This document shows, in pieces, positions 6,911 through 35,183 of a stretch of DNA of 64,000 nucleotides (position 1 is the first letter of the stretch; each line of letters starts with the position of its first letter). The notes beneath the pieces were generated by a model, which saw only the letters and a list, made by a program, of their open reading frames with translations, ran no database searches and was not told where the DNA came from. The translations under genes were made by a program, and so were the position numbers. Source of the stretch: Muribaculaceae bacterium Isolate-104 (HZI) (lineage in GTDB: Bacteria; Bacteroidota; Bacteroidia; Bacteroidales; Muribaculaceae); the NCBI GenBank assembly GCA_003762715.1, contig RIBJ01000039.1:1-64000 (forward strand). The letters are read 5' to 3'.

Positions 6911-6913
6911 GGC

Positions 6914-14021: not shown

Positions 14022-14026
14022 AGATT

Positions 14027-17617: not shown

Positions 17618-17643
17618 TTCTAAATTTCTAAATCAAAACAAGT

Positions 17644-19645
17644 ATGTCACAACAAGAAGATGACCTGCGGTCGCTTGCCAAAATCATGGATATGCTTCGT
17701 GGCGTAGCCATGATACTTGTGGTCGCTAATATCTATTGGTTCTGCCAGTCGCTTATAGGCGGCTGGCGGTTCCACGCCGAGACAATGAAGGTGCTCGGCA
17801 ATCTCAATGAGGCCGGCGGACTGTTCAACAATCCGTGGAACGCCAAATGGTGGGCGCTACTTTTTCTTGCCCTTTCGTGCTTCGGCACGAAGGGTGTCAA
17901 GAATGAGAAAATCCAATGGCGCCAAATCTGGATTATCCTGTCGGTTGGTGTCTCTCTGTTCTTCCTCAATTGGTGGATGCTCTATATCCCTTTGACGGTT
18001 CTCTATATTATTACTACAGTGGCAGGTTTTATCTGTCTCTTGTTGGGAGGTGTATGGATAAGCCGTTTGTTGAAGAACAATATGATGGACGACCGCTTCA
18101 ACGAGGAAAATGAATCGTTCATGCAGGAGACCGAGAAGAAGACAAATGAATATTCCATCAACCTCCCCACAAAATTCTTTTACAAAAAGAAGTGGAACAG
18201 AGGCTGGATTAACGTCGTAAACCCATTCAGGGCTACAATAGTGCTTGGCACCCCCGGCTCCGGCAAGTCATACGCGGTAGTCAATAACTTCATCAAGCAG
18301 CAGATTGAGAAGGGGTTCAGCTTGTACGTCTATGATTACAAAAGTCCTGATTTAACGATGATTGCATACAATCACATGTTGAACAACATGGATAAATATG
18401 GCCAATACCCGCCTCGGTTCTGCTTCATCAACTTCGATGACCCTGAACACTCTCACCGCTGCAATCCTATTCATCCCGATTTCATGACGGATATTGCCGA
18501 CGCTTACGAGTCGGCATATACCATCATGATGAACTTGAACCGCACGTGGCTGCAAAAGCAGGGAGACTTCTTCGTCGAGTCGCCAATCGTCCTGTTCGCC
18601 GCTATCATCTGGTATTTGAAGCGATTTGAGAATGGTAAATATTGCACGTTCCCTCATGCGATAGAATTTCTTTGCCGGCCATACGAACAGATATTCCCGA
18701 TTCTGACAAGCTATCCGGAACTGGAAAACTATCTTTCGCCATTCATCGACGCATGGCAGGGCAACGCGCAGGAACAGCTTCAGGGACAGATAGCATCGGC
18801 AAAGATTCCTCTTACCCGCATGATTTCGCCGCAGTTATACTGGATTATGACCGGGGATGATTTCACTCTCGACATCAACGATCCGAAAGAGCCGAAGATA
18901 CTGTGTGTCGGCAATAATCCCGACCGTCAGAATATTTACGGGGCGGCTCTCGGTCTGTATAACAGCCGAATTGTCAAACTCATCAACAAGAAGGGAATGT
19001 TGAAGTCTGGAGTGATAATTGACGAATTACCAACTATTTACTTCAAGGGACTCGACAATCTCATAGCAACGGCACGAAGCAATAAGGTTGCCGTCTGCCT
19101 CGGCTTTCAAGATTTCTCACAGCTCAAACGCGACTATGGCGACAAGGAGGCGGCGGTGGTGATGAATACTGTCGGAAACATCTTCTCCGGACAGGTCGTT
19201 GGCGAAACCGCCAACGACACTTTCCGAAAGGTTCGGCAAGGTGTTGCAGAAGCGTCAGTCCATGAGCATCAACCGCAATGATGTGAGCCACTCGTTCAAC
19301 ACCCAGATGGACAGTCTGATTCCGCAGAGCAAAATCTCGACACTGACACAGGGTATGTTTGTAGGCTCCGTGTCCGATAATATCGACCAGCGTATTGACC
19401 AGAAAATCTTTCATGCCGAGATAGTGGTGGACTCCGAGAAAGTCAAGGCGGATGAAGCAAGATACCGGCCGATTCCGATTCTTACAGACTTCAAGGATGA
19501 CACAGAGGACAAATCAAAAATGAAATTTGTGATTCAGAAGAATTACGAGCAGGTTAAGAAAGATGTCCGCGACCTTGTAGAACGAGAAATAGAACGCATC
19601 AAGGAAGATCCGGTTCTATGTAGATTGCTCCCCAAAGGTATATAA
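17644..19645 (+). pseudogene. mobC: Type IV coupling protein MobC, split by a 1-nt frameshift
   Basis: The first frame (17644-19281) gives 545 residues with N-terminal membrane helices, a Walker A (GTPGSGKSYA, about residue 203) and a VirD4/TraG fold, then runs into a short unrelated tail. The normal C-terminus continues in another frame up to 19645 (TLSERFGKVLQKRQSMSINR ... RPIPILTDF). The switch is near 19214, where ...GCCAACGACACTTTCC reads as ...GCCAAGACACTTTCC with one extra base. The full protein would be about 666 residues. If genuine, this should disable DNA coupling unless another coupling protein compensates; it could also be an assembly error. Confidence 0.88.
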
Positions 19646-20049: not shown

Positions 20050-20682
20050 TCAGGCTCTATCGTCTTCATTGTCAAGTCTGCGCTGCACGTCTTCTTCGAC
20101 GCCCTTTTTGAGGCCGTCAAGAAATTCCGTAACGCTCTTGCTTGAATCCTTTGATTTGAGCGATGATATTATGTTGTTGACGTAGTGGACTGTTACATCG
20201 AGGTTGAGTGCTGCCGCCATGTTGCGTACCAGCTCTGAGAACGAATCATCGTCCATGATGCAGCCGCCTACCTTTATGGCATGGCACAGGTGGGCGAAGT
20301 GTGATTTGGGTTTGCGCCAGCGGAGGGTGCTTTTGATGTCCGGCACACCGGTTTCAGGGGTGAATCCGGTCATGGCAGAGAGCGACTGGAGCTTTCGCGA
20401 CACATAACTGTGTGCGGTATTGAAGGCTGATGCCAACGCCTCGTTGACCTGATTGAGCATCATACGGCTCTTGATTTCCGATAACTGGATGTCGGCGATA
20501 GTAAGCAGTTCCAGCGCGTAGTTGTGCATGGGTGAGCCTGTTGCTGTGACCTCATGGATGGTTATGATGAGGTCTGTGAGTTGTGCAGGAAGCTCTGCTG
20601 AGAAAAGGCCCTGACGCAGATTCTTAAATACTTCAAGATTTGTCAGGTGGAACAGATCCAAACGTCTTGTTTCCATAAACAA
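20050..20682 (-). CDS. RteC-family regulator
   Basis: The 210-residue product has an N-terminal helical domain and a C-terminal part with the RteC pattern: HLCHAIKVGGCIMDDDSFSE, then NLDVTVHYVNNIISSL and SVTEFLDGLKKGVEEDVQRR. In CTnDOT, RteC activates excision genes. The length is close to RteC (about 217 residues). It is divergent from the RteB-like gene across 166 bp (20683-20848). The start could be the second Met two codons in. Confidence 0.72.
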   Translation of the reverse strand: MFMETRRLDLFHLTNLEVFKNLRQGLFSAELPAQLTDLIITIHEVTATGSPMHNYALELLTIADIQLSEIKSRMMLNQVNEALASAFNTAHSYVSRKLQSLSAMTGFTPETGVPDIKSTLRWRKPKSHFAHLCHAIKVGGCIMDDDSFSELVRNMAAALNLDVTVHYVNNIISSLKSKDSSKSVTEFLDGLKKGVEEDVQRRLDNEDDRA

Positions 20683-20848: not shown

Positions 20849-22318
20849 ATGTCTAAAGTGTTTTCAACCAAAAGAACTTTATCTGCTGATAGAATGTTTC
20901 TTAATGTGTATTTGAGATTTCAAGACTTCATTTTCTCCCCCAAAATTGGATATATCGAAGAAAAAATGAAAAAACGACCGAAAAAGATGCCTTTATCCGA
21001 ATGGAAGGTGCTCCTTTTTGCCTCAAAGGATGCGCCACTCGCGCTGCTGCTGGACTCAATCCCGGCAATGAGGTCACGTGTTACCATAACCCATGACTTC
21101 AAAAAAGCAATAGCGGAGATTAACGGCGGCAACTATACTCACGTTATGTCTGATGTCACTCAACAAGACCCGGTCGCCAGAAGAATCATGACGTGGGTTC
21201 ATATAAACCATTCCGAGATCGAAACCTGTTTTCTTGGAGTAAATGGTCATCCAAGTGGGGAGATTGATATATGGGAACTCTCTAACGGTAAGATTTTCAC
21301 TCACTCAATAACTGGAGTGGACCCGCTGACCGAGCCGTTGAGTGTCCTGTATTCCGAAGAAACGCCTCTGAAATGGCTCAGTCATGCAAAATGTGAGTGT
21401 CTGCAAGTCCGTGAAAGGCTGAATCCCCGAAAGAATAATGTGGTTTTGATAATGGGTGCCGGAGGAACCGGTAAGGCAGTCCTCGCGCAGATTGCCCATT
21501 TCAGTAGCCCGCGATGCGAAGGGTTGTTTGTATTTGCCAACTGTAGCTCAGACAGTAATATCCCCAATGATACTGTATGGACGGTGGAGTGTGAGAACCG
21601 ATTCCGGAAAAGCGTCAGGCACATGTTCGACCAAGCCGACAAGGGCACCTTATATATTCATGACATTGACAAACTCGATCGGGTTGCTCAAAAAATTATG
21701 TATGAGGAAATCAATAAAGTTGTGGATGCTCCTGTCGCTGACAAGAATCCCCGTCTTATAATCTGCGCCACAAACAAATACCTTGAACACGAGGTAGGCA
21801 ACGGAGACTTCTCCGCTGAGTTATACGCGCTTATCAGCGACTTTATCATCAACGTTCCTTCTTTAAGCCAGTTTAAGGAGGAATTGCCGATGCTGGCAGA
21901 CAATCTATTGAGGGCATATTGCCTTACGGCAAAAATTTCAGAACGGAAATTCACTAAAGATGCACTGGAGACTATTCGCGCCCATGTGTGGGATGAGAAT
22001 CTTCGAGGTCTTTATCAAGCTCTCAAACAAAGTTATATGATGGCTGACTCCATGTATATCAAGCCCTCTCACATGAACCTTACGCCACATCTTGACAGGA
22101 ATGACTCGCTGATTGACCAGAGCCATAGCATCAAAACAGCTTTGCTGAATAACAAAGGGGTTGTTATAAGAGCCGCAAAAGAGCTTGGCATATCAAGAAG
22201 CCATTTGTATAATCTCATGACGTTATTAGAAATCACGCATGGATTTGGCTTGCCCCCTCTAAAGAAAAAACAACGACTGGAAATGAAAAAGAATAAAAAC
22301 TCCGGAGAAAATAAATAG
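20849..22318 (+). CDS. RteB-like AAA+ regulator with Fis-type HTH, lacking a GAFTGA loop
   Basis: Residues about 50-150 resemble a degenerate receiver domain. Residues about 190-350 are an AAA+ ATPase with Walker A GAGGTGKA near 205 and a Walker-B-like TLYIHDIDKL near 270. The sigma-54 contact motif GAFTGA is absent from its usual place between them. The C-terminus has a Fis-type helix-turn-helix (NKGVVIRAAKELGISRSHLY). It is probably the ICE's RteB equivalent. The start could instead be ATG 20966 (MKKRPKKMPL), which drops 39 poorly conserved residues. Confidence 0.72.
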   Translation: MSKVFSTKRTLSADRMFLNVYLRFQDFIFSPKIGYIEEKMKKRPKKMPLSEWKVLLFASKDAPLALLLDSIPAMRSRVTITHDFKKAIAEINGGNYTHVMSDVTQQDPVARRIMTWVHINHSEIETCFLGVNGHPSGEIDIWELSNGKIFTHSITGVDPLTEPLSVLYSEETPLKWLSHAKCECLQVRERLNPRKNNVVLIMGAGGTGKAVLAQIAHFSSPRCEGLFVFANCSSDSNIPNDTVWTVECENRFRKSVRHMFDQADKGTLYIHDIDKLDRVAQKIMYEEINKVVDAPVADKNPRLIICATNKYLEHEVGNGDFSAELYALISDFIINVPSLSQFKEELPMLADNLLRAYCLTAKISERKFTKDALETIRAHVWDENLRGLYQALKQSYMMADSMYIKPSHMNLTPHLDRNDSLIDQSHSIKTALLNNKGVVIRAAKELGISRSHLYNLMTLLEITHGFGLPPLKKKQRLEMKKNKNSGENK

Positions 22319-22319: not shown

Positions 22320-22481
22320 AATCGCCGAGACCACGACCGCGCCTGGCGGCAGCTTCGCCACCTCGACTTTTGCCGCCTCCATCTTATCAACGGCAATCGG
22401 CTCGTATCCGGCTCGCGTGAGCAGGCCCGACATAAGCCGACGGTCGGATTCGGAGGCTTCTACAATGAGAATCTTGTTCAT
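22320..22481 (-). pseudogene. N-terminal stub of a second RteB-type response regulator
   Basis: From ATG 22481 the frame reads MNKILIVEASESDRRLMSGL and goes on to KLPPGAVVVSA, the first 54 residues of an RteB-type receiver domain as found in related ICEs. At about 22320 the similarity stops and the frame continues antisense into the end of the plus-strand RteB-like gene, without receiver homology. The receiver's phosphorylation face, the ATPase and the DNA-binding parts are missing. It marks a rearrangement joint beside the phosphate cassette. It is probably non-functional. Confidence 0.75.
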
Positions 22482-22594: not shown

Positions 22595-23518
22595 TTATTT
22601 GGTGCGGTTTACTATATGGACCGTTTTGCCATCCTTATCAAGCATATTCAGTCTGAGATTATTTTTATCGGCGGTTAGGACTGAAAATCCGGGAGAATCA
22701 TTGCAGAAAACAGTGCCATCAATTTTTTGCGGAGTCCTCGTGAGGGAGCCGGATGTATTGACCACATAGTCGATTTTTGAATCTGGGCGGCGGATGTGCT
22801 GATAATTGTGAATATGACCGCAGATATACATATCTACATTGTGCTTACGTAGAATTGTATCGACTTTCTTCTGCATATCAGTTCGCTCAGATTCCGACTT
22901 ATCGGTATAGGCATAGATGGGATGATGACCGACCACAACGATCCAGTCTTCCGTCGCCTCAGTCAAAGTCTTTTCGAGCCATTGCAACTGGGCTTCGGTA
23001 TCCTGATTCACAGCATCGGGATATGTGTCGGTCTTTTTCCTGTATTTGTCAATCAAAGGAGTGGTGTCGAGAAATATCACCTTGACAGTTGTCCCGTCAT
23101 CTTCAAAGGTCTTGGCGTAATATCTCGCAGGCATCTCCCAACGGCGGGATATGCCGGAATAGTCGATAACCGCCTGAGTGTTGCCGCGATATTCATGGTT
23201 GCCGCAGATAGGATACCAGTTCACCATAAGCTCCGGGTGGTCGTAGATAAGCTCATAGTTGGTCATCCACAAGGGGTCTGTCACACTCTCCACTCCGCCG
23301 TAGTGATGTGTGTCGCCAAGAGCAAGAATAGCATCGGGTCCTATTTGTTCTGCAATTCTGCCCATCGTCGCGGCAACAGGCTTCTGGTCATAGTGACCAT
23401 TACGTCCGAGGTCTGACACTACCATAAGGTTCACATCGCCTTTGGCGATTTCAGTCTGGGCAATGGCTCCAAAAGAGGGGATGAGAGCCAAAGCCGCGAT
23501 AAGTAATTTACGAATCAT
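22595..23518 (-). CDS. Secreted purple-acid-phosphatase-like (TRAP-type) metallophosphatase
   Basis: A signal peptide (MIRKLLIAALALIPSFGAIA) precedes a metallophosphoesterase with the blocks expected of small purple acid phosphatases: a SDLG block near residue 36, GDTHHYGGV near 65, GNHEY near 105, GHHPIY near 195 and GHIHNYQ near 233. The GGVESVTDP segment resembles tartrate-resistant acid phosphatases. It would release phosphate from esters in the periplasm or at the surface. It follows the TonB-dependent receptor gene by 12 nt, so the two are one operon under the phased promoter at 26.3 kb. Confidence 0.88.
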   Translation of the reverse strand: MIRKLLIAALALIPSFGAIAQTEIAKGDVNLMVVSDLGRNGHYDQKPVAATMGRIAEQIGPDAILALGDTHHYGGVESVTDPLWMTNYELIYDHPELMVNWYPICGNHEYRGNTQAVIDYSGISRRWEMPARYYAKTFEDDGTTVKVIFLDTTPLIDKYRKKTDTYPDAVNQDTEAQLQWLEKTLTEATEDWIVVVGHHPIYAYTDKSESERTDMQKKVDTILRKHNVDMYICGHIHNYQHIRRPDSKIDYVVNTSGSLTRTPQKIDGTVFCNDSPGFSVLTADKNNLRLNMLDKDGKTVHIVNRTK

Positions 23519-23530
23519 TGTTTTGTATTT

Positions 23531-26281
23531 TTAGAATGTTACTTTTACACCGCCGTTGAATTTCACTCCGTAATATTCCTGTTGCATCGTGTAGTCCTTG
23601 CTGCCTTGGTAATAGCGCAGAGGCTGGTTGAGAAGGTTGTTGCAGTCGGCATATACGGTTATTTTTGTTTTGCGCCCGAATGTGTAGCTGACGTTCAGGT
23701 CCAGATATTTCACGGCATCATAGTATCGGTCGTAGAATGAACTTGCGCCCATTTCGTCGATAAATGCCGAGGCATAGTTGAATGAGGCTCTTGCGGAGAA
23801 ACCGCACTTGTCGAAATATAGCGAGAGATTAGCGGTATGTTCAGGGGAACCCGGCAGACTTAGACCTTTTTCGTTTTCACGACCCTCGAAATTGAAATCG
23901 GTGATGCGTGAACGTGTATAGGTATATGTTGCATAAAGTCCGAGGCATTTCATCGCCGGTGTGATGAAACTGAAATCGCGTTGCCATGCAAGCTCAACAC
24001 CGAATATATTGGCATTGCCGCCGTTCTTCGGTTGAGTGAATTTCGTCCATAAATTCCCTTCGTATTCCTTGTTGTAGGCCACCTCGTCGACAATAAAGCC
24101 CTCAATGCGTTTATAGAACAGACCGGCAGACACAAGTCCTATCGACTTCCAGTAATATTCGGCATTGAGGTCTATGTTGTGTGATGTGGTTGCCTTCAGA
24201 CCGGGGTTGCCCACCGTTATCTCATTGTCGCCGCGGCTTATTTTCATTCCCGGGACGAGTGCCGAATATTTTGGACGGGATATTGACTGGTTGTAGCCCG
24301 CACGGAACAGGAAATCCTTATTTATCTCCCATTTCAGAAGAAGCGATGGGAGGAAGTTTATGTAGCTTGAAGTTGCCGGCGCGGTTTTCGACACCTCTCC
24401 GGTCTCGTCGTCATAGATTCTGCCGATGTAACGCAAGTCGGTGTTCTCCACTCTCAATCCTCCCATAAACTGAAGATTGTCCGCGAGCCGTGAGTCGATG
24501 CGCATGTAACCGGAAGTGACATTCTCTCGGGCGTGGTAATTGCCCGCAAGTTCCTCAGCCACCTGTTCGCTCTCAAACTGATTTTTATCATCAAGATTCA
24601 GAAAGCCGAGAAAATATTTGTCAATGAATGTTCCCGCCTTGTATTTAGCCGAAGGCATAAAACGGTCTGTAGTCATATCGACAGTATGGGAGAAAGCATC
24701 CTTGTCAAAGGCCTTCTCATCAATGGGAGTGTATTCGTAGAAGTCTATCTCTTTGTTCTTGAACTTGCTGACGAATTTGAAGCCGAATTTGAGCTTTGCC
24801 CTGTCGCTGAGTTTTGTCTTGAAATCAAGAGCTGCCTTGAAGTCCTTCTCGACAATATCTTCCTGCTGCTGTGTCAGTTCCTTGAGTGAGAAATCATCAT
24901 TGAGTGTAATAGTGGAGCCTTCCTCCGGAGTGGCAAGCGGCTCCCGCGGATTCGACAGATCAATACTGAACTTCTGTTTTTTCAGACGATAATCGATATA
25001 GCGCTCGTTAGGCCTTTCCTCGGAGGCTCTCGCATATCCTAATTTCCAGTCAATACCGAAAATGCCGAGACGGTTCTCGCCTCCGAGAGTGAAGTCCATG
25101 GTGCGTTGGCGTTCCAGACGGGCGTTGCGGTTGTCGGGCGTGCCACCTTTGGTCTGCACCCTGACATCGGCTTTCCCCTCCGGGGTCATGTCTTTCAGCG
25201 TCGTGCGATAGCGGTTTTCCCAGTCGTTGCGGTTGTTGAAGATACCTTTGAACCATATCTTGTTGTAGTCGTTGAACTTCCAGTCGAGCGACAACGAATA
25301 ACTCTGACGCTCGCGGGTGACAAAATACTGCCTTATCTGATAGTCGTTGACATAGATTTTGCCGTCGTCATCTTTTTCCCATATAAATTCTGTATTATAT
25401 GATCCGGCTGGCGCATTATTATAGGAGGCTGCAAGCATCACTCCGAAGCGGTCATTGAAGAAACGGTTACCGAGAGTGAGTCCGAAATTCATCTGCGCCT
25501 TACGGCTTATCCAGTTGTAGCCTGTTCCCGCTACGGCTCCGACAGTAAATCTGTGTGGAGAATTTTTCGTAACGAGGTTGATAGAACCGCCGATGGCATC
25601 GCCGTCCTGATCCGGCATAAGTGTCTTGCTGACCTCTATTGTCTGAATCATATCGGACGGTATGAGGTCAAGCTGGACATTGCGAATGTCTCCCTCGGCC
25701 GATGGCAGTCTTGACCCGTTGATTGTCACTGAACTGAACTCAGCCGGAGTGCCGCGTACCTGACCGAAACGGGCCTCGCCCTGATCATACTGCACATTGA
25801 TACCGCTTATACGTTTCAGAGCGTCTCCGATATTCGAGTCGGGGAATTTGCCAATCTGGTCGGCAGACACCACATTGGTTATATTGATATTGTTCTTCTG
25901 GGCATTTATGGCTCTTTGCTGCCCGGAGAAAACGCCGGTCACTACAACTTCATTCAGTTCCCGTGATGTATCCGACATTACAATGTCGTCAACCGTCGAT
26001 TCTTCCGAAACCACGATTGTTTTACTGACCGGGAGAAAACCGATATAAGTTACTTTCAGATTATGATCCCCGGATGAAAGGTTGGCAAACGAGAAAAAGC
26101 CGTCGAGATCCGTAACCGCCGACAGCTTGTTGCTGTCAATGATAACCACCGCTCCCGGCAGCGGGTTCTTCTCATTGTCAAGGATGCGGCCTTTAAGTTG
26201 TCCGTATTTCGGACTGTCAGCCGCCATAATGGTCAGACTTGAAGCAAGCGCGACCAAAAAAGTTGACATTACTTTTTTCAT
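23531..26281 (-). CDS. TonB-dependent receptor of the phosphate cassette
   Basis: The 916-residue protein has a signal peptide, a carboxypeptidase-regulatory-like beta-sandwich domain (about residues 28-110, YGQLKGRILDNEKNPLPGAV), a TonB-box/plug region (LNEVVVTGVF ... FPDSNIGDALKRISGINVQ) and a large barrel ending VKFNGGVKVTF. There is no SusD partner. Linked to a phosphatase and next to a PhoBR-like pair, it probably imports a phosphate-containing ligand across the outer membrane; the substrate is unknown. The promoter at 26314-26369 shares the cassette's phased sites. Confidence 0.9.
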   Translation of the reverse strand: MKKVMSTFLVALASSLTIMAADSPKYGQLKGRILDNEKNPLPGAVVIIDSNKLSAVTDLDGFFSFANLSSGDHNLKVTYIGFLPVSKTIVVSEESTVDDIVMSDTSRELNEVVVTGVFSGQQRAINAQKNNINITNVVSADQIGKFPDSNIGDALKRISGINVQYDQGEARFGQVRGTPAEFSSVTINGSRLPSAEGDIRNVQLDLIPSDMIQTIEVSKTLMPDQDGDAIGGSINLVTKNSPHRFTVGAVAGTGYNWISRKAQMNFGLTLGNRFFNDRFGVMLAASYNNAPAGSYNTEFIWEKDDDGKIYVNDYQIRQYFVTRERQSYSLSLDWKFNDYNKIWFKGIFNNRNDWENRYRTTLKDMTPEGKADVRVQTKGGTPDNRNARLERQRTMDFTLGGENRLGIFGIDWKLGYARASEERPNERYIDYRLKKQKFSIDLSNPREPLATPEEGSTITLNDDFSLKELTQQQEDIVEKDFKAALDFKTKLSDRAKLKFGFKFVSKFKNKEIDFYEYTPIDEKAFDKDAFSHTVDMTTDRFMPSAKYKAGTFIDKYFLGFLNLDDKNQFESEQVAEELAGNYHARENVTSGYMRIDSRLADNLQFMGGLRVENTDLRYIGRIYDDETGEVSKTAPATSSYINFLPSLLLKWEINKDFLFRAGYNQSISRPKYSALVPGMKISRGDNEITVGNPGLKATTSHNIDLNAEYYWKSIGLVSAGLFYKRIEGFIVDEVAYNKEYEGNLWTKFTQPKNGGNANIFGVELAWQRDFSFITPAMKCLGLYATYTYTRSRITDFNFEGRENEKGLSLPGSPEHTANLSLYFDKCGFSARASFNYASAFIDEMGASSFYDRYYDAVKYLDLNVSYTFGRKTKITVYADCNNLLNQPLRYYQGSKDYTMQQEYYGVKFNGGVKVTF

Positions 26282-26313
26282 TGTGATTGTTGTTTTGTTT
26301 CTGATTCACGTTG

Positions 26314-26369
26314 CAAAATTCGCCAACTAATATTTCATGGGTTTATCAGATTTGTTTAGATTTTATGAA
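26314..26369 (-). promoter_or_regulatory. Receptor promoter with 11-bp-phased activator sites
   Basis: On the minus strand the -7 box is GAATTTTG (26321-26314). Exactly 15 nt separate the start of GAAAT (26336) from the box. Upstream blocks of 11 bp follow: GATAAACCCAT, TAAACAAATCT and TTCATAAAATC. The same spacing is found at 29041-29098 and 31491-31548. I read this as a PhoB-type operator that replaces the -33 element. The transcript leader would be about 25-30 nt. Confidence 0.6.
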
Positions 26370-26387
26370 ATAAATTGTGTCATTAAA

Positions 26388-26443
26388 CTTTTATTAAACT
26401 TTTGAGCATTAGGACAGTATTTGACCTATTATTAGTAATTTTG
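26388..26443 (+). promoter_or_regulatory. Two-component-system promoter with a tandem 11-bp repeat
   Basis: ATTAAACTTTT occurs twice in perfect tandem (26382-26392 and 26393-26403), an 11-bp period typical of PhoB-family boxes. A perfect -7 box TAATTTTG is at 26436-26443. The start codon at 26448 is so close that the transcript may be almost leaderless. These sites lie back to back with the receptor promoter in the 166-bp divergent gap. Confidence 0.6.
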
Positions 26444-26447
26444 CAGC

Positions 26448-27143
26448 ATGGAAACAAAAAAGAAGATACTTGTTGTCGACGATGAGGAGGCTTTGTGTGA
26501 CGGCCTCGGATTCAATCTTGAAGCGGAAGGCTATCAGGTTGACATGGCGTATAGCGCGGAGGAGGCTCTTGCCCTCAACCTTGCCGCCTATGACCTGATA
26601 CTCCTTGATATTATGATGGGGGAAATATCCGGGACTCAACTGGCACGCATAATGAAGTCGAATCCGGCAACTGCCTCCGTTCCCATCATATTCTGCACGG
26701 CCAAAGACACGGAGGAGGATATGATTGCCGGTCTCGACCTCGGAGCAGACGACTACATAATGAAGCCTTATTCTCTTAATGCCGTACTCGCTCGTGTTCG
26801 TACTGTGCTTCGCCGGACTGGGGCTTCTGTCGCACCCGCCAAAACGGATTCAGATCTTGTTTCATACAAAGGATTGGTACTGTCTGCCAAAAACAGGACT
26901 TGCACGGTTGACGGAACAGAGGTGAAAATGCCCAAAAAAGAGTTTGAGATACTGCTTAAACTCATTTCCAACCGTGGACAGATTTTCACCCGTGCGGACC
27001 TGCTGAACGAGATATGGCCCGACGAGGTTGTGGTGCTTGACAGGGTTGTTGACGTGAACATAACCCGCATCCGTCAGAAGATAGGAATCTACGGCAAGAA
27101 TATAGTAACCCGATCAGGATACGGTTATGGGTTCATTGAATAA
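26448..27143 (+). CDS. PhoB-like response regulator (OmpR family)
   Basis: The 231-residue protein has a receiver domain (residues 5-120) with the acidic pair DDEE, phosphoacceptor Asp54 (LILLDIMMG), a Thr in FCTAK and Lys in YIMKPY. A winged-helix DNA-binding domain follows (about 135-230, LVSYKGLVLSAKNRTCTVDG ... VDVNITRIRQKIG). It is coupled to the sensor kinase by a 17-nt overlap. Given its neighbours it most likely senses phosphate limitation and binds the 11-bp-phased sites in the cassette promoters; that target assignment is inference. Confidence 0.9.
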   Translation: METKKKILVVDDEEALCDGLGFNLEAEGYQVDMAYSAEEALALNLAAYDLILLDIMMGEISGTQLARIMKSNPATASVPIIFCTAKDTEEDMIAGLDLGADDYIMKPYSLNAVLARVRTVLRRTGASVAPAKTDSDLVSYKGLVLSAKNRTCTVDGTEVKMPKKEFEILLKLISNRGQIFTRADLLNEIWPDEVVVLDRVVDVNITRIRQKIGIYGKNIVTRSGYGYGFIE

Positions 27144-28575
27144 ACTTTCTTATCCGCAGCGTCTGTTCGTTTGGCTTCTCGGATATTCCCTGCTGATGGT
27201 CGGGTGCTTTGTAATTTTTCAATATCATAGGGAAAAGGAATTCAAGGCGGAGAAGATTGACAAGCAGCTCCAGCTCATCAACACATATATTCTTACAGAA
27301 CTGAGCGAAGGGCATGATGTCCAGGATATAAAACTTGACGAGTTCAAACCGTTCAACGATATTCGTATAAGCGTAATTTCCGACAAGGGACATATAATAT
27401 ACGACAATACTCTTGACTCGTTGCCGAAAACAAATCATCTTGACCGTCAGGAAATCCGGGATGCAATGCTGAATGGCTCCGGCTATGCTGTAAGACGGCA
27501 CAGCGAGAGTACAGGCAACTATTATTTTTACTCGGCGAGAAAGAGCAATGACGGCAATATTGTCCGTACCGCAGTGCCGTATTCCATATCGTTCAGCGGA
27601 CTATTGCAAGCAGATTACGGTTTTTTATGGATTATGGGGATTATTACATTGATTATGTGCATCCTGGGCTATTTCGCAACCCGGAGGGTAGGTCTCCACA
27701 TAATCAGGCTTAACAAATTTGCCGAGAACGTGGAAAACGGGGCACAGATTTCCGATACAGAACCGTTTCCCCACGATGAGCTTGGCGAGATTTCAAACCA
27801 CATAGTCCGTCTATATGCCCGTCTGCAACAGGCGGTGGCAGACAGGGACAGCGAGCATCGTGCCGCTCTTCATGAGCAGCTTGAAAAGGAACGCATCAAA
27901 AAGCAACTCACGAACAATATAAATCACGAACTGAAAACTCCCGTAGCGTCAATCAGGGTCAGCGTGGAAACGATGCTGGCACACAGGAATATGAGCGATG
28001 AAAAGCAAACGTTGTTCCTGCAACGCTGCCTTACGAACACGGAAAGGCTACAGCGGCTTCTGACCGATGTGTCACTCCTTACGCGCATGGATGACGGAAG
28101 CACCTCCATCATAAAGGAACAGGTCAATCTCACTGATATAATAAATGACGTGGTTGAGGACCGACAGATACTTGCCGCCACAAAAGGGATAACAATCGAG
28201 AATTTTGTTTCCCGCGACATCGTTATGGCCGGAAATTCGCCGTTGCTTGAAGCGGTGTTCAACAACCTTATCGACAACGCCATTGTTTATAGTGGAGGAA
28301 CAAGGATAAAAATAGGATTAACCGGTTTGGATAGCGACAAGGTGACGTTAACATTGTCAGACAACGGTTGCGGTGTACCATCCGAACACCTTCCAAGGCT
28401 GTTTGAAAGGTTTTATCGCATCGACAAGGGTCGGTCGCGTGCGGCGGGAGGAACAGGACTCGGCCTTTCAATAGTGAAAAACGCCGTGATTATGCATGGT
28501 GGCGAGATTATCGCCGAAAATAAATGCTCTGGAGGATTATTATTCAAAATAACATTTTCAAGGAACTCAAAATGA
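27127..28575 (+). CDS. PhoR-like sensor histidine kinase
   Basis: The 482-residue protein has two membrane helices (about 12-34 and 160-182) flanking a periplasmic domain of about 125 residues. A HAMP-like segment, an H-box NINHELKTPVAS (His about 267) and an HATPase domain follow, with N-box NNLIDNAIVYS, DNGCGVP, and GGTGLGLSIVKN. It phosphorylates the upstream regulator, which it overlaps by 17 nt. Its stop overlaps the mgsA start as ATGA, so all three genes form one operon. Confidence 0.9.
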   Translation: MGSLNKLSYPQRLFVWLLGYSLLMVGCFVIFQYHREKEFKAEKIDKQLQLINTYILTELSEGHDVQDIKLDEFKPFNDIRISVISDKGHIIYDNTLDSLPKTNHLDRQEIRDAMLNGSGYAVRRHSESTGNYYFYSARKSNDGNIVRTAVPYSISFSGLLQADYGFLWIMGIITLIMCILGYFATRRVGLHIIRLNKFAENVENGAQISDTEPFPHDELGEISNHIVRLYARLQQAVADRDSEHRAALHEQLEKERIKKQLTNNINHELKTPVASIRVSVETMLAHRNMSDEKQTLFLQRCLTNTERLQRLLTDVSLLTRMDDGSTSIIKEQVNLTDIINDVVEDRQILAATKGITIENFVSRDIVMAGNSPLLEAVFNNLIDNAIVYSGGTRIKIGLTGLDSDKVTLTLSDNGCGVPSEHLPRLFERFYRIDKGRSRAAGGTGLGLSIVKNAVIMHGGEIIAENKCSGGLLFKITFSRNSK

Positions 28576-29018
28576 AGACAAAACTGAAAATTGCGCTTGT
28601 CGCTCACGACCAACGCAAAGCCGATATGGTAGATTGGGTAAAATTCAACGCCCAATATCTTTCCCAACATGAGCTGGTATGTACCGGCACGACCGGAGGG
28701 CTTATAAAGAATGCTTTCTCAGAAGCAGGAATAGATGCTCAAGTCGAATGTATGAACTCGGGTCCGATGGGCGGTGATGCCGAAATAGCCGCAATGGTGG
28801 TAAGAAACGAGATTGACCTCGCTGTTTTCCTGATAGACGACCTTAATGCGCAGCCCCACGAGGCGGACATTCAGATGCTTTTGCGTCAATGTCGTCTCCA
28901 CAACGTGCCGATTGCCTGCAACCGTATAAGTGCCGACCTGATGATTTCAAGCCGCCTGTGGGATGACCCCACATATAAACCCATCGAACAGAGCTATATA
29001 CGGTTTGACCGCAATTAA
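28572..29018 (+). CDS. mgsA: Methylglyoxal synthase
   Basis: I place the start at ATG 28572, overlapping the kinase stop (ATGA). The 148-residue product aligns along its length with MgsA: HDQRKADMVDWV, TGTTGGLI, SGPMGGDAEIAAMV (with the catalytic Asp), DLNAQPHEADIQMLLR, and ADLMISS. MgsA converts dihydroxyacetone phosphate to methylglyoxal and releases inorganic phosphate; the known enzyme is inhibited by phosphate. Being in a PhoBR-type operon suggests it is used to free phosphate when it is scarce. The frame opens 16 codons earlier, but those codons show no homology. Confidence 0.93.
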   Translation: MKTKLKIALVAHDQRKADMVDWVKFNAQYLSQHELVCTGTTGGLIKNAFSEAGIDAQVECMNSGPMGGDAEIAAMVVRNEIDLAVFLIDDLNAQPHEADIQMLLRQCRLHNVPIACNRISADLMISSRLWDDPTYKPIEQSYIRFDRN

Positions 29019-29040
29019 ACTCTCTGACTGTTCGGTAGTT

Positions 29041-29098
29041 TTAATAAATGGTTAAGGATTTTGAAATATTCATGAAATGTTTTCTTAGTTACTTTGCA
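29041..29098 (+). promoter_or_regulatory. Phosphate transporter promoter with 11-bp-phased sites
   Basis: Four blocks run without gaps: TTAATAAATGG (29041), TTAAGGATTTT (29052), GAAATATTCAT (29063) and GAAATGTTTTC (29074). The first GAAAT-type pair and the TTAA pair each repeat with an 11-bp period. The -7 box TTACTTTG is at 29089-29096, 15 nt after the start of the last GAAAT. The layout is the same as at 31491-31548. Confidence 0.65.
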
Positions 29099-29122
29099 GC
29101 AGAATAAGTAATTAAGACAACA

Positions 29123-31405
29123 ATGGAAATACTGTTTCTTTGCGTAGTAATTTTTCTGTTTCTGCTGGCTGTGTTTGACCTGTCAGTAGGTGTGAGTAAC
29201 GATGCTGTCAACTTCCTGAATTCGGCAATCGGGTCTAAGGCGGCATCATTCAAAAGAGTCCTGATTGTCGCTTCCATCGGTGTTTTTATCGGTGCGGCGA
29301 TGAGCAACGGTATGATGGAGATTGCCCGGCACGGAATTTTCCGTCCCGAGCATTTTTCATTTTATGACCTTATCTGCATTTTCATGGCGGTAATGGTCAC
29401 AGACATCATCCTTCTCGACATCTTCAACTCGCTGGGTATGCCGACATCGACAACCGTGTCAATGGTTTTCGAGCTTTTGGGTGCTACATTCGTTGTAGCT
29501 CTTATCAAAATGGCGGGAGGCATCGGTCTCGGTTTTGATGACTTGCTTAACACAGAGAAAGCCTTGTCGGTTATTCTCGGAATATTCCTGTCTGTTGCGA
29601 TAGCCTTTTTCTTCGGTACGGTGGTGCAGTTCATATCCCGCATGGTGTTCTCGTTCAATTACCGGAGCAATCTGAAATGGAAGATAGGGATATTCGGCGG
29701 TATCTGCGCCACTGCGATTGTTTACTTCCTCCTGATTAAAGGGGCAAAGGATCTTTCTTTTATGACCCCTGAACTGAAAGCGTGGATAAAAAACAATACA
29801 GCGTTAATTATACTGTCCTGTTTCGCAGTTTTTACAGTGCTGATGCAACTGCTCCATATCTGCAAGGTCAATGTGCTGAAAGTGATTGTGCTGATGGGTA
29901 CATTCTCGCTTGCCGTGGCATTTGCCGGAAATGACCTTGTGAACTTCATAGGTGTTCCCTTGAGCGGTCTGGCTTCATATCAGGATTTTATAGCCAACGG
30001 CGGCGGAGATTCCAAAGGCTTCCTTATGGATTCGCTCAACGGCCCGGCAAACACCCCGATATATTTCCTAATCGGTGCCGGTGTCATAATGGTGGTGTCA
30101 CTTGCAACGTCAAAAAAAGCCCGGAATGTGACCAAGACTGAAATCGGACTCGGAAGCCAGCAGGGTGGCGATGAGATGTTCGGTTCATCCCGCATCGCCA
30201 GAAGATTGGTTAGATGGACTTTATCATTTCTATCTTGGGTGCGCCGTGTGACACCGATAAAAGTACGCCGTTGGTTCAACCGCCGTTTTAATGTGGATGA
30301 GACCATTATGGATCAAGGGGCGGCTTTCGACCTCATACGCGGCTCTGTAAATCTGGTACTTGCCGGCGCGCTTATTGCCTTCGGTACTTCACTAAAACTG
30401 CCCCTGTCAACTACTTTCGTCACATTCATGGTCGCTATGGGTACTTCTCTCGCTGACAGAGCATGGGGTCGTGAAAGTGCGGTATTCCGCATCACCGGTG
30501 TGATTTCAGTAATTGGTGGTTGGTTCCTGACTGCGGGAGCGGCGTTTATCGGTGCGGGAATGATTGTCGCTGCTATGCACTATGGCGGACAATGGGTTAT
30601 GCTTCTGTTGGCGGCTCTGACGATATTCATAATTATCAACAGCAATCGGAGATTTAGAAAGAAGACTGAGGAAGACAATGGCGATGCACTGTTCCAGACC
30701 ATAATATCCACTCAGGATAAAACGCAGACATGGCCGTTGCTTATGATGTATATCACGGAACAACAGGAGAAATTCATGACCTATGCCGAGGAAAAATACC
30801 GGGATATAACATCAGCTTTCATAACTGAAAGTTCCGGGGTGCTGAGCAAAACAGAGTCAAGCCTTGCACGTCAGAAAACGATACTTAAAAATGCTCGCCG
30901 CAAAGAGACTCTGTGCTTCCGTCACCTGACCCGAGAGATGTCGATAGAAAAAAGCACATGGTTCTATCTCAGTAATAACTGCTGCATGGGTATACTATAT
31001 AACCTGCGACGCATCAACGAAGTGTGCAAGGAACACATCGACAATAACTTCCTCCCGTTGCCGCCCCGATATGCCACTGAATACGAGTTAATCAGAACCC
31101 AAATAAGCACTCTTTTCAACGATACTCTCGGACTTATGAGAAGTGGTGACACCGAGACAATAGGCAATCTTCGCCGACACTGCGACGAAATCAAGGATAC
31201 CGTTTCCGATACATATCACCGTGTGCATGACCAGCTTCGCGACGGGGACACATCGGCAATGTCTGTTCTGTATGTATATGTCAATATGCTTCAGGAGACG
31301 CAGGAAATGGTATCGTCAATCCGTAAATACCTTCGTGCGTTTGCTAAACTGCGCGACTCGGAGTTCCGTACCCGCCCGGCAAAAATCGTGATGCCGACAG
31401 TATAA
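29123..31405 (+). CDS. Pit-family inorganic phosphate transporter with C-terminal PhoU-like domain
   Basis: The 760-residue protein has about ten membrane segments in residues 1-510. The duplicated PiT signature appears as SNDAVNFLNSAIGSKAASFK near residue 28 and as LPLSTTFVTFMVAMGTSLAD near 430. Residues about 520-760 are a soluble helical domain resembling PhoU/DUF47 proteins (FLPLPPRYATEYELIRTQIS ... LQETQEMVSSIRKYLRAFAK). It would take up phosphate with a built-in regulatory domain. It has its own phased promoter and a strong terminator at 31440. Confidence 0.9.
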   Translation: MEILFLCVVIFLFLLAVFDLSVGVSNDAVNFLNSAIGSKAASFKRVLIVASIGVFIGAAMSNGMMEIARHGIFRPEHFSFYDLICIFMAVMVTDIILLDIFNSLGMPTSTTVSMVFELLGATFVVALIKMAGGIGLGFDDLLNTEKALSVILGIFLSVAIAFFFGTVVQFISRMVFSFNYRSNLKWKIGIFGGICATAIVYFLLIKGAKDLSFMTPELKAWIKNNTALIILSCFAVFTVLMQLLHICKVNVLKVIVLMGTFSLAVAFAGNDLVNFIGVPLSGLASYQDFIANGGGDSKGFLMDSLNGPANTPIYFLIGAGVIMVVSLATSKKARNVTKTEIGLGSQQGGDEMFGSSRIARRLVRWTLSFLSWVRRVTPIKVRRWFNRRFNVDETIMDQGAAFDLIRGSVNLVLAGALIAFGTSLKLPLSTTFVTFMVAMGTSLADRAWGRESAVFRITGVISVIGGWFLTAGAAFIGAGMIVAAMHYGGQWVMLLLAALTIFIIINSNRRFRKKTEEDNGDALFQTIISTQDKTQTWPLLMMYITEQQEKFMTYAEEKYRDITSAFITESSGVLSKTESSLARQKTILKNARRKETLCFRHLTREMSIEKSTWFYLSNNCCMGILYNLRRINEVCKEHIDNNFLPLPPRYATEYELIRTQISTLFNDTLGLMRSGDTETIGNLRRHCDEIKDTVSDTYHRVHDQLRDGDTSAMSVLYVYVNMLQETQEMVSSIRKYLRAFAKLRDSEFRTRPAKIVMPTV

Positions 31406-31439
31406 AGTCTAAGGTAAGAAAGATTGTTCCTAAGGTTGA

Positions 31440-31468
31440 GATGGAAGATTTATTCTTCCATCTTTTTT
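31440..31468 (+). terminator. Rho-independent terminator after the phosphate transporter gene
   Basis: GATGGAAGA (31440-31448) pairs with TCTTCCATC (31454-31462) around a 5-nt loop and is followed by TTTTTT. It separates the transporter transcript from the promoter at 31491. Confidence 0.9.
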
Positions 31469-31490
31469 GTATTGCAATCGTCTGAGCGAT

Positions 31491-31548
31491 TTAATATTTA
31501 TCTAATATTTCCGATATAAACGTGAAATAAAAATGAGGTTACTTTGCA
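31491..31548 (+). promoter_or_regulatory. Promoter of the PhoU-like/porin operon with 11-bp-phased sites
   Basis: Blocks TTAATATTTAT (31491), CTAATATTTCC (31502), GATATAAACGT (31513) and GAAATAAAAAT (31524) are phased at 11 bp; TAATATTT repeats exactly at 31492 and 31503. The -7 box TTACTTTG (31539-31546) starts 15 nt after the start of the last GAAAT block, as in the transporter promoter. Confidence 0.65.
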
Positions 31549-31568
31549 ACAAAGAAAACTTATAAATC

Positions 31569-32270
31569 ATGTGCATAACAGTTATCTCCATCATATCTCT
31601 GGCAGGAATCATTGTCATGTTGCAAAGACATATCAGCAGACGAAAAATAAAGGAAAGATTTTGTCTTGTCTCTTCTGGTCGGCCTGTTGGAAAGTCGTGT
31701 TTGATTATGACGATGCAGTCATGTGGCCCGATTATCGACAAAGCATTGGAATGTCTTTCAAGCAATGACAATATTGAGGTTTGTAAGAACCATCGAACAG
31801 GATCTCAGACCATTGATATAATCAGCGATAAAGTCCGGGATTGTTCGGCAGACACAGAAGGAAAGATCGGTAAGACCTCACTATATTGCGAATATATGCT
31901 TGAGGCCACTGACAAGATAGCCGAAACGACACGGCATCTTGTCACTTCCCCCGACAGTTATATCCCGATTTCATACAAATGCGAGATTGAGACAATCCGT
32001 GGAGGAATTGTCAGGCTATCTCGATTGGCTGACGGCATCCTCGGTGTTGATGACGATATAATAAAGATTGCCGGAGACACAGGTCTGGAGAAGGATTTTA
32101 TAGAACACAGCATAGCCGTACATTCCAAAGGGATGACCCATGAAGACTTTGATGAAGGAGCACCCGCATATTCCTATCTTATGCTCCTGTATTATCTTCA
32201 TTCCTTTGTCAGCTCCTTTTCACAGGCACTCAGAAACATCGAAACCAACAATAAATTAAAGACAGCATGA
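31569..32270 (+). CDS. Membrane-anchored PhoU-like helical protein
   Basis: The 233-residue protein has one N-terminal membrane helix (about 2-19). The rest appears all-helical and resembles PhoU/DUF47-type bundles in its central segment (SLYCEYMLEATDKIAETTRHL). The similarity is loose, so the family call is tentative. It overlaps the porin gene by 4 nt (ATGA) and sits under a phased promoter, so a role in phosphate uptake or its control is likely. Confidence 0.55.
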   Translation: MCITVISIISLAGIIVMLQRHISRRKIKERFCLVSSGRPVGKSCLIMTMQSCGPIIDKALECLSSNDNIEVCKNHRTGSQTIDIISDKVRDCSADTEGKIGKTSLYCEYMLEATDKIAETTRHLVTSPDSYIPISYKCEIETIRGGIVRLSRLADGILGVDDDIIKIAGDTGLEKDFIEHSIAVHSKGMTHEDFDEGAPAYSYLMLLYYLHSFVSSFSQALRNIETNNKLKTA

Positions 32271-33277
32271 AACAAATTTTAATTATGACGGCGGTGTTGT
32301 CCGTAATTGCAATGTCTGCCGTGGCTCAGAATAAAAATCCATTCATTCCTGAAATACACGGAACAATCCGTGCCAAATATGAATATGAACCTCAGATAGA
32401 CAAGGGACGCTTCGAGATACGCAATGCACGGCTGAGCGTGGAAGGCAAGGTGATTCCCATTGTGAGATACAAGGCAGAGATAGACCTTTCTGACGAGGGA
32501 ACAATAAAGATGCTCGACGCATACGTGCGACTGCAACCAAAGGATGCGTTAAAATTCACCTTCGGTCAGATGAGAGTGCCGTTTACCATTGACGCTCATC
32601 GTTCACCACATCTACAGTATTTCGCCAACCGATCCTTCATAGCAAAGCAGGTCGGCAATGTGCGCGATGTCGGAGCATCAGCGTCATGGACGTTCAATGA
32701 CCGTATGCCCATTACTCTTGAAGGGGGTATATTCAACGGCTCGGGACTTACAAATCAAAAAAATTTCTGGACCGACAACTATAATTTCTCGTTCAAGGCG
32801 AATACTATGATTGCCCGGCAATTCAATATAACACTCAGTTGCCAAAAGGCAAATGCCGGGGATGTGAACGTGATGATGTACGATGCAGGAGCCTATTGGC
32901 AAAATCAGAGATGGCACATTGAGGCTGAGTACCTCCGCAAGCATTATGCCCACGGCTCTTTCGCTCCTGTAAATGCTGTTGACGCATTTGCCGCATATCG
33001 ACTTCCGTTGAAAAAGGGGCTGACGTCCATATCATTCCTCGGTAGATATGACTATATGTCAGACCATAGCAAAGGTACGAAAGATGAATCCGGCAATCTA
33101 AAAATAGATGATCCTGAAAGACACAGACTGACCGGTGGTGTTACATTCAGCATGGGAAAGAAATCATTGCAGGCGGATATTCGCTTCAACTATGAGCAAT
33201 ATTTTTACAACGAAGGTGTAACTCCGGCAATTTCAGAACAAAATAAGATAGTCTTGGAATTTGTAGCCCATTTTTGA
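32267..33277 (+). CDS. Phosphate-selective porin (OprO/OprP family)
   Basis: A signal peptide (MKQILIMTAVLSVIAMSAVA) precedes a 16-stranded-type barrel with the family's early motifs (FEIRNARLSVEGKVIPIVRY, LKFTFGQMRVPFTIDAHRSP) and a C-terminal strand ending LEFVAHF. Such porins form outer-membrane channels for phosphate or polyphosphate. It is the last gene of the cassette and is followed by a hairpin terminator. The length (336 residues) is a little below OprP (about 440). Confidence 0.88.
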   Translation: MKQILIMTAVLSVIAMSAVAQNKNPFIPEIHGTIRAKYEYEPQIDKGRFEIRNARLSVEGKVIPIVRYKAEIDLSDEGTIKMLDAYVRLQPKDALKFTFGQMRVPFTIDAHRSPHLQYFANRSFIAKQVGNVRDVGASASWTFNDRMPITLEGGIFNGSGLTNQKNFWTDNYNFSFKANTMIARQFNITLSCQKANAGDVNVMMYDAGAYWQNQRWHIEAEYLRKHYAHGSFAPVNAVDAFAAYRLPLKKGLTSISFLGRYDYMSDHSKGTKDESGNLKIDDPERHRLTGGVTFSMGKKSLQADIRFNYEQYFYNEGVTPAISEQNKIVLEFVAHF

Positions 33278-33342: not shown

Positions 33343-35183
33343 CTATCGTAATCCAGTGAAAGTACGCCGTGAGGCATACATATAAATAGGTTCAGCCACC
33401 ATCGACTCCTTTGAGCCGGAGGATTGTGCCGGGTTCTCGACCCGCTGTGATTGCTGTGGCTGCTCATCCCGCTTGACTTCCTCGCCGTCTTTTTCATCGT
33501 GTTTAGGGGCAAGTTCGGCGGTAATCTTGCGGTCGAGGGCGGCAAGTTCGGATTTCAACGCCTTTAACTCATCCTCTTTGCCCCATGTCTTGGCGACGAT
33601 GCCTTCGAGAACTGGAACATCGGCCTTGAGTTTGGCCGTGCGTTCCTCGTACTGGGCGATTATGCCGGGGATTTTCTCCAGAGCGTTGACGAAGTTCATG
33701 CAGGCGGCATGTGTGTCGCTCATGGCAATGAAGCCGTTGTTGAACTTGTATTTGTAGTTGCCTTCGACAACAAAACGGTTCTGGATGCCTTCTCTGCCGT
33801 CAACGACCGTCCGCTCCGATATTATGCTTATCGGGAAGCCATAGACCTCGCCGACACGGACGTATTTACCGTGGGTGTCGGTCGTGCGAGCCAATCCTTG
33901 CAGGTAGATGCCCATGTTCTGCTCATCCTTATACTTACAGTCGTCAAGGACAAGACTGTTGACCGGATTGCCGTCCTTGTCTCGCTGAACAGCAGACTGA
34001 TACTTGGCAGCGTCTTCCTTCATCCGTGCGATAGCCGCCTCATTGTTGGCGATGTCGTGGCTGATGGTCTGGAGTCTGAAACGGGAGTCTCCGATGCCCT
34101 TGTTGAAGGATTTGCGCTCACTCTCCAATGCCGCTATGCGCTTTTCGAGTTTCGCTTTATCCAACAGGTCGGTGTTACCGCTGAGTATAGCCATGTATTC
34201 CGAGAAGTTCATGCCGTTCTTCTCATCCATCGAACCCTCGTCAATGGTTCTGGCTCCCATAGCACCGGATTTCAACTGGGCAATGAAAGTAGCCTTGCAG
34301 TGAAGAAGATTGAACTTGTAGGAGTCCAGCGACTTCTCGACAGCATAGATGATTACATCCACCTTGTTATCAGCATACAACTTGGCAATCTCGTTGCCGG
34401 CTCGTATCGCACGGCCCTCACGTTGTTCAAGGTCACTCGGTCGCCAGGGGCATTCGAGTTCATGGACCGCAACCGCTCTGCGCTGGGCGTTCACGCCTGT
34501 GCCGAGCATGGTTGTCGAACCGAACAAAACTCTGACATCACCGCTGTTCATAGCCTCGATGACAGCCTTTCGGCTACGTTCCGTCTTACACTCCTGAATG
34601 AAACGTATCTCATGCGCCGGGATACCATAATCCTCAATCAGCTTGCGCTTGATTTCGGAATAGACATTCCATTCGCCGGGCTTGTATGTGCCGAGGTCGC
34701 TGAAAACAAACTGTGTACCTTTCTGCGCGTCGTATTTGCGGTAGTATTCGGCAATCATCTTGGCGCAATGGCTGGCCTTGTTGTTCGGATCGTCGCCGTA
34801 TGAAGGGTCAACGAGCCGGAGGTCAAGAGCCATCTTGCGGGCATAGTCCGTGGCAATGAGCATCTTCGCTTTTTCCTCGGTGTCAGACAATGGCGCCCTG
34901 CCGAGTATCGTGGCATCGCCACTCTCGGCAAACTTCATCAGTTTCTCGATGAAAGCCTCCTGCGCCGGTGTCGGAGGGATGTTGTGAAGAATCTCACGTT
35001 TCTCCGGCCGGTCAACACCTACATCCTCGGCGGTACGATAGTCCGTTATCTCGTTGTAGAATGCCGCCAGTTCCGGCACCTTGATGAAGTAGCGGAAACG
35101 CTCCTTCTGAATCAAGTTGTTGGTGACGGAAAACTCGAAGTCGGTTGTCTTCTTGGCGAAGATAGCCGCCCATGCGTCAAAAC
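33343..35183 (-). pseudogene. C-terminal part of the ICE helicase/methylase, cut off by an inserted element
   Basis: From about 35183 the frame reads [20 protein letters not shown] and continues through the helicase C-terminal lobe ([12 protein letters not shown] ... [15 protein letters not shown] ... [11 protein letters not shown]) to a coiled-coil C-terminus. It joins exactly to the N-terminal part at 40268-44498 (ending ELERQEIRS) once the 5.1-kb element is removed. It lacks its own natural start; an internal ATG at 35115 opens a 590-codon frame. Whether any protein is made is unknown. Confidence 0.9.
35177..35183. repeat. Left attachment core of the nested element
   Basis: TCAAAAC here matches TCAGAAC at 40261-40267 with one difference. 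The left copy keeps the Phe codon of the conserved FDAW motif in the host gene, so this is the host version. A mismatch within the exchanged 7 bp is familiar from Bacteroides integrases that tolerate heterologous coupling sequences. Confidence 0.75.

Follow-up and report, generated by a model that had tools for sequence, protein, structure and literature searches.

Conjugative elements of gut Bacteroidales are known mainly for the resistance, secretion-system, glycan or vitamin genes that they carry. In marine cyanobacteria, phosphate genes occur on phages and islands. For Bacteroides fragilis, the portion of PMC3547664 drawn on here places an acid phosphatase in the phosphate-dependent PhoB group and describes changes of a porin O and of a phosphate/sulphate permease in a phoB mutant; for Flavobacterium, the portion of PMC8115612 used here describes the induction by low phosphate of outer-membrane transporters that lie beside phosphatases. 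Here we analyse a stretch of 64,000 nucleotides from Muribaculaceae bacterium Isolate-104 (HZI) (contig RIBJ01000039.1; hereafter the window), in which eight adjacent genes (the block) very probably form a complete, PhoB-controlled phosphate-acquisition module carried as cargo by a CTnDOT-type integrative and conjugative element (ICE) at the 3' end of ssrA.

Inspection of open reading frames (ORFs) and family profile searches confirmed that eight ORFs occupy positions 22595-33277, where a first-pass annotation of the DNA had placed them, and matches to the families named there were obtained, with PhoR below its cut-off, the porin matched over part of its length and the two PhoU assignments resting on predicted folds and not on sequence (Table 1). 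The metallophosphatase is a putative purple acid phosphatase by its match to solved purple acid phosphatases, the nearest being the human enzyme 1war (phmmer, E 5.8e-34); its N-terminus looks by eye like a signal peptide, and the receptor gene lies upstream of it on the same strand. The length of 148 amino acids (aa) given for methylglyoxal synthase is counted from the likely start, which overlaps the phoR stop. Pfam PhoU has no match, at E-values up to 10, on either the C-terminal part of the Pit protein or the 233-aa protein, and a profile of the Pit C-terminal part did not retrieve PhoU by sequence from the PDB at E up to 1; the fold search alone did. AlphaFold2 models of both nevertheless resemble PhoU: for the model of the Pit C-terminal 251 aa (predicted local distance difference test score, pLDDT, 91.5) the best PDB match is PhoU 4q25 (template modelling, TM, scores 0.72/0.85; E 1.2e-4), and the protein is thus a predicted Pit-PhoU fusion that joins a PHO4 domain to a PhoU fold. 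The profiles of the 233-aa family and of the Pit C-terminal part could not be usefully linked when compared with each other (probability 9.5%). The 233-aa gene was also considered as a general ICE gene, an idea that was dropped: it occurs in 13 of 397 genomes of the family Muribaculaceae, 11 with the block and 2 (G087 and G129 in our numbering of genomes) with related modules.

The first-pass annotation had put the block between the regulatory genes and the helicase gene of a CTnDOT-like ICE, and family searches of the flanking genes bear this location out. By its tra genes, relaxase (MobB; NF041325 534 against a cut-off of 400), coupling protein, integrase near one end and chromosomal insertion site in ssrA, the element is identified as a CTnDOT-type ICE. 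The rteB-like fragment at the left edge of the block is 58% identical over 78 aa to the RteB-like protein of G087, as compared via an identical stretch of locus L108, and longer rteB-like versions adjoin the phosphatase gene in G278, G081 and MGM2. To the right of the block, the helicase gene is accompanied by DUF1896, a topoisomerase-like gene and DUF4099, then by the tyrosine integrase and ssrA. The window contig starts inside the element, and the left ICE end is therefore not seen.

Evidence that the block travels with this ICE also comes from two other hosts. In Palleniella muris, the ICE matches window positions 152-20000 at 100% and 45100-51105 at 98%, and the block locus matches at 96% over 13.6 kb and at 98% over a further 3.3 kb, with order conserved. 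The IMSAGC_004 locus is 99.96% identical over 20.7 kb, minus a nested 5-kb element described below, and two contigs of this genome carry window positions 152-4817 and 14851-20000 at 100%; positions 45100-51104 are present at 98%. In both, identity to the window stays near 100% until about 50718-50743, the ssrA 3' end, and drops beyond it, since the ssrA genes themselves belong to the respective hosts; this junction is common to all three hosts. The window host groups with Paramuribaculum, a genus of the Muribaculaceae to which G001 also belongs, and P. muris is a member of the Prevotellaceae. The serine hydroxymethyltransferase (SHMT) of P. muris is 72% identical to that of the window host and the SHMT of IMSAGC_004 76%, the latter being nearer to those of Prevotella MGM1 (83%) and P. 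muris (80%). Near-identical ICE copies in such divergent hosts provide evidence, read directly from the sequence, for a recent move of the ICE between families. Over the 13.6 kb, P. muris departs from the window in one mosaic stretch of about 22.6-27.6 kb, covering the phosphatase, the receptor, phoB and the start of phoR; outside it, no 500 bases hold more than one difference. Cargo alleles seem on this evidence to have recombined.

A DNA search found the block in 12 of the 397 Muribaculaceae-family genomes, the window's included, with the 11 others at 83-95% identity; this count is a lower bound, since one or two candidate places were scored per genome. In 4 of the 11 (G110, G156, G119, G074) the block lies end to end in one piece, and in the other 7 it is split, shortened or carries an insert. 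Searching named genomes for the 233-aa family yielded 15 loci and added IMSAGC_004, P. muris, Prevotella MGM1, MGM2 and the metagenome-assembled genome (MAG) S32_Bin2, which brings the total to 17 genomes, one of them partial (S32_Bin2, with the 233-aa gene and porin alone on a short contig). Pieces of the ICE helicase adjoin the porin or 233-aa gene in 9 of the 17 (window, G001, G081, G082, G110, G278, IMSAGC_004, P. muris, S32_Bin2), and the phosphatase gene has an rteB-like N-terminus next to it in 11 (window, IMSAGC_004, P. muris, G074, G081, G110, G119, G156, G182, G278, MGM2). At least one of these ICE marks is thus present at 14 of the 17 blocks and both at 6; the three without a mark are G171, where the contig ends close on both sides, MGM1 and G202. 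Further genes of this ICE are seen only in the window, in P. muris and, spread over two contigs, in IMSAGC_004. The block of G156 is followed by an integrase piece and, about 11 kb on, by the first tra genes of another ICE; in G202 an integrase piece lies 11 kb off, on the side of the block away from its rpoBC-like ORFs. The block has been retained in several hosts where the surrounding ICE has decayed. A different ICE, that of G087, carries a related, reshuffled module (phoB, phoR, receptor, phosphatase, Pit, 233-like gene, synthase and porin, then the helicase 3' end) together with a full rteB-like gene and mobilisation and transfer genes. Cargo status is thus supported by position, by the near-identical ICE copies in two other lineages, by the common ssrA junction and by the marks beside 14 of 17 copies; the stricter proposition of the first pass, that the block always sits on ICEs, holds only in part, since the copies outside the window, P. 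muris and IMSAGC_004 are ICE relics, are limited by contig ends or, in G202 and MGM1, bear no mark.

Among 393 genomes drawn from across the order, with one or two candidate places scored per genome and the limit set at 1e-100, the block was found in the window alone; 13 genomes matched, including the window, mostly through Pit alone, and three genomes of one family (f68) had Pit and porin. Plasmid records (near-match search) and viral contigs yielded no relative.

The block copies share common descent: 12 block Pit proteins form one clade (support 100/99), outside which the remaining Pit copies of G000, G001, G119 and G156 are placed. This tree omits Pit proteins that are identical, partial (G001, G202) or X-bearing, and its 12 block rows therefore represent more loci. 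Comparison of the window with up to 13 other block loci gave dN/dS of 0.01-0.16 in all eight genes, which points to purifying selection on every one of them; the range does not cover the G087 copy, reads below 90% of full length were skipped, pairs without synonymous change gave no ratio, and IMSAGC_004 was not included. The 233-aa PhoU-like protein is the fastest-changing of the eight, with 77-82% identity to the more distant block copies and dN/dS of 0.13-0.16.

Direct repeats with an 11-bp period are a property of E. coli PhoB sites, and repeats of this kind stand at the heads of transcription units in the block, where they are putative PhoB sites. The pattern TTAANNTTTNNTTAANNTTT, between the divergent receptor and phoB genes, has a single exact match in the 64-kb window with both strands searched, and 15 of 29 distinct regions upstream of phoB contain it without mismatch (0.1 expected). 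Its relative at 31491 begins 78 bases before the start codon of the 233-aa gene; 9 of 11 distinct upstream regions of that gene hold the pattern with at most two mismatches (0.4 expected), as do 38 of 49 pit upstream regions with at most three (8.9 expected). Because these counts are weighted by related copies and the pattern was derived from the window's own phoB promoter, lags 8 to 25 were scanned on merged sets, in which any upstream region sharing 70% identity or more with one already kept was merged into it, and 300 shuffles were made. Lag 11 was highest for phoB (16 regions), pit (39), the 233-aa gene (2) and the receptor (4), and none of the 300 shuffles reached any of these; the receptor and phoB results are not independent, since the two genes share one intergenic stretch. 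Upstream of the phosphatase (283 of 300 shuffles) and the porin (81 of 300), lag 11 was not raised. The host's other pit promoter has one match with three mismatches.

The unified phosphate role proposed at first pass is thus supported by the gene families, by the 11-bp repeats at unit heads and by purifying selection on all eight genes, and the block would be expected to respond to phosphate. At low phosphate, PhoR would activate PhoB, which would bind the 11-bp repeats and turn on four units: receptor-phosphatase, phoB-phoR-mgs, pit-phoU, and PhoU-like protein-porin. The receptor and porin would carry phosphoesters and phosphate across the outer membrane, the acid phosphatase would release phosphate outside the cytoplasm and Pit would import it, with the PhoU parts damping uptake or signalling. 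Methylglyoxal synthase is an enzyme that frees phosphate and is inhibited by it; inside the cell it would liberate phosphate from dihydroxyacetone phosphate.

PstB (TIGR00972) scored above its cut-off in 2 of 34 chosen genomes (IMSAGC_004 and G057) versus 13 of 14 controls, and was absent at that cut-off from all 12 Muribaculaceae carriers tested, G087 and P. muris; some of the genomes are drafts. Most tested carriers having no Pst system, the block would add an inducible phosphate system to them. It is conceivable, and we offer it tentatively, that in Pst-less Muribaculaceae and Palleniella hosts the ICE gives the main inducible phosphate-scavenging circuit, with its PhoB also acting on host PhoB sites. 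If so, a conjugative element installs a second nutrient-control system, a complete one that begins with a sensor, includes uptake and ends with methylglyoxal synthase recycling phosphate inside the cell.

A number of observations weigh against a PhoB-controlled module on a CTnDOT-type ICE. Among the genes, PhoR scores 464 with NF053855, below the cut-off of 500; methylglyoxal synthase misses one of two models (TIGR00160, 139 against 147); and the porin match to PF07396 is partial, covering residues 44-165 only. In the part of PMC3547664 cited above, the B. fragilis porin and permease are in groups described as phosphate-independent. Among the promoters, apart from the origin of the pattern in the window itself, lag 11 is also top, more weakly, at the operon-internal mgs (2 of 300 shuffles) and phoR (7 of 300), the pit promoter of the window departs from the pattern at three positions, and at the host's other locus (L002) the phoB promoter has no match within three mismatches. 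Around the element, a left ICE end and flanking direct repeat were not found, and the leftmost 10 kb of the P. muris contig hold no copy of the 3' end of ssrA longer than 10 bases; window positions 4818-14850 were not found at high identity in IMSAGC_004, whose ICE is split over contigs. Finally, the G001 helicase piece is oppositely oriented, and the shortened block of G202 lies beside ORFs that look by eye like rpoBC, with no adjacent ICE mark, as is likewise the case for MGM1.

These points bear on three other explanations. The block could be an ordinary Muribaculaceae chromosomal island that one ICE picked up by chance and that spreads mainly by other means: most copies lie outside any ICE visible whole, G202 and MGM1 have no ICE mark beside the block, and PhoBR-Pit loci also occur off ICEs in the family. 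Yet besides the window, P. muris and IMSAGC_004, 11 of the 14 carriers retain ICE remnants at the edge of the block, namely an rteB-like fragment, a piece of the helicase gene or the two together. In G087, moreover, the related module of a second ICE stops at the 3' end of the helicase gene, and we regard this explanation as unlikely. We give even less weight to the idea that the cargo serves the ICE itself, for example by letting its PhoB make excision or transfer depend on the phosphate state. The block does adjoin the ICE regulators, and PhoB could act on ICE promoters; against this, the exact box pattern is confined in the window to the receptor-phoB gap, and the remaining block genes are uptake and hydrolysis genes.

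Genomes from single-cell genomics are composites, and the sharing of the ICE between families might on that account be a product of contamination or misassembly. IMSAGC_004 indeed stems from a single-cell genomics study, according to the portion of PMC6977353 used here. The P. muris contig, however, leads out of the ICE into an ssrA with a distinct sequence, and the mosaic stretch sets its block apart from that of the window, so that the two are not the same DNA; we consider an artefact highly improbable. Phosphate-acquisition cargo on a CTnDOT-type ICE is the preferred reading.

Table 1. Coordinates of the block genes, candidate promoter repeats and ICE features in the window
Feature	Position	Strand	Basis
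Purple-acid-phosphatase-like (TRAP-like) metallophosphatase, 307 aa	22595..23518	-	PF00149 7.3e-21
TonB-dependent receptor, 916 aa	23531..26281	-	TIGR01782 488 bits vs cut-off 310; Plug and barrel domains
PhoB-box-like 11-bp direct repeat TTAANNTTTNNTTAANNTTT between divergent receptor and phoB genes	26383..26402	+	exact match
PhoB response regulator, 231 aa	26448..27143	+	NF053854 329 vs cut-off 270
PhoR-like sensor kinase, 482 aa	27127..28575	+	NF053855 464, below cut-off 500; HisKA and HATPase_c
Methylglyoxal synthase, 148 aa	28572..29018	+	NF003559 168 vs 84; 1vmd 3.4e-33
Pit (PHO4) permease with predicted C-terminal PhoU-fold domain, 760 aa	29123..31405	+	PHO4 7.7e-23, 81 vs 34
PhoB-box-like 11-bp repeat upstream of 233-aa gene	31491..31510	+	one mismatch to TTAANNTTTNNTTAANNTTT
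233-aa protein: helix at the N-terminus, probably a membrane anchor, plus predicted PhoU-like helical domain	31569..32270	+	AlphaFold2 model
OprP/O-type porin, 336 aa	32267..33277	+	PF07396 49 vs 20.9, residues 44-165
ICE transfer region: TraQ, primase-like, TraO, TraM, TraK-like, TraJ, TraG, ParA-like, others	83..14926	-	Pfam
ICE MobC, MobB relaxase, coupling protein	15864..19281	+	PF19514, PF03432, PF14293 (YWFCY)
ICE RteC-like regulator	20050..20682	-	PF09357 27.0 vs 25.3
ICE sigma-54 activator (RteB-like)	20849..22318	+	PF00158 1.2e-14
rteB-like gene N-terminal fragment, 53 aa, left block edge	22321..22481	-	similarity to G087 RteB-like protein
ICE helicase gene, C-terminal part, 3' end adjoins block	33343..35115	-	Helicase_C
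ICE helicase gene, N-terminal part	40254..44498	-	MutS_I
ICE tyrosine integrase	48977..50194	-	Phage_integrase, SAM-like, arm-binding domains
ssrA (tmRNA), 3' end = right ICE junction	50708..51104	-	ARAGORN

Several features lie beside these subjects. The ICE helicase gene of the window is split by a nested element of about 5,077 bp at 35184-40260, with a tyrosine integrase (35344-36663), an ExoX-like gene and small genes; the two helicase parts correspond to one 2023-aa ORF in IMSAGC_004, the helicases of IMSAGC_004 and P. muris are without the nested element, and a 7-base core is common at the junction. The helicase region of P. muris (contig C56, loci L173 and L174) carries at about 48-83 kb an insert of about 34 kb that looks by eye like a Mu-like prophage. 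S32_Bin2 (L110), a MAG labelled Oscillospiraceae, holds the right end of the block and ICE helicase, and mis-binning is likely. Beyond the phosphatase side of the block, G110, G119, G074 and G182 (L075, L079, L080, L081) have MATE-type and hexapeptide acetyltransferase genes; in G110, the sole one tested, the MATE-type gene is above the TIGR00797 cut-off and the Vat family score of 231 bits is below the cut-off of 300, and a second copy of the rteB fragment lies beyond these genes. Beside phoB, G081, G278, G087 and G129 (L087, L091, L095, L097) have another or an extra receptor gene and a lipoprotein-like gene, as if the outer-membrane part of the module were exchangeable.

Metabolic cargo of ICEs is a known kind, and the block consists of ordinary parts on a known type of carrier. 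No paper among the matches listed in literature searches, judged by title and abstract opening with subscription papers sparsely covered, is about a whole Pho regulon as ICE cargo, and a term search of the main text of a survey of mobile elements of gut bacteria (PMC6907783) did not find the word 'phosphate'. With such cargo, phosphate acquisition in the gut would become a trait that is under selection and can be shared. The element would also offer a testable case in which mobile DNA supplies a sensor and binding sites of its own to hosts already equipped with this kind of regulon, and would tie methylglyoxal synthase to the phosphate economy of these bacteria.

The element resembles other CTnDOT-type ICEs of Bacteroidales in its transfer genes, MobB and MobC, RteC-like and sigma-54 regulators, topoisomerase-like gene, helicase and tyrosine integrase, and differs from them in its phosphate-module cargo, its right end at ssrA and the absence of an rteA-like sensor among the scanned genes. 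The block resembles the B. fragilis PhoB regulon, in which, by the part of PMC3547664 used, an acid phosphatase, a porin O and a phosphate/sulphate permease are under the influence of PhoB; the B. fragilis genes, by the same part of that source, lie at scattered loci and include a pst operon, whereas here there is one mobile block with no Pst genes. The phosphate utilisation systems (PUS) of Flavobacterium are alike in that outer-membrane transporters of low phosphate are co-located with phosphatases, as the portion of PMC8115612 used here describes. The block differs from them in having a TIGR01782-type receptor, a TRAP-like phosphatase and no SusD gene. With cyanobacterial phages and islands it has in common that phosphate genes reside on mobile or variable DNA, and in contrast to them the genes for sensor, regulator, uptake and hydrolysis travel together here on a conjugative element.

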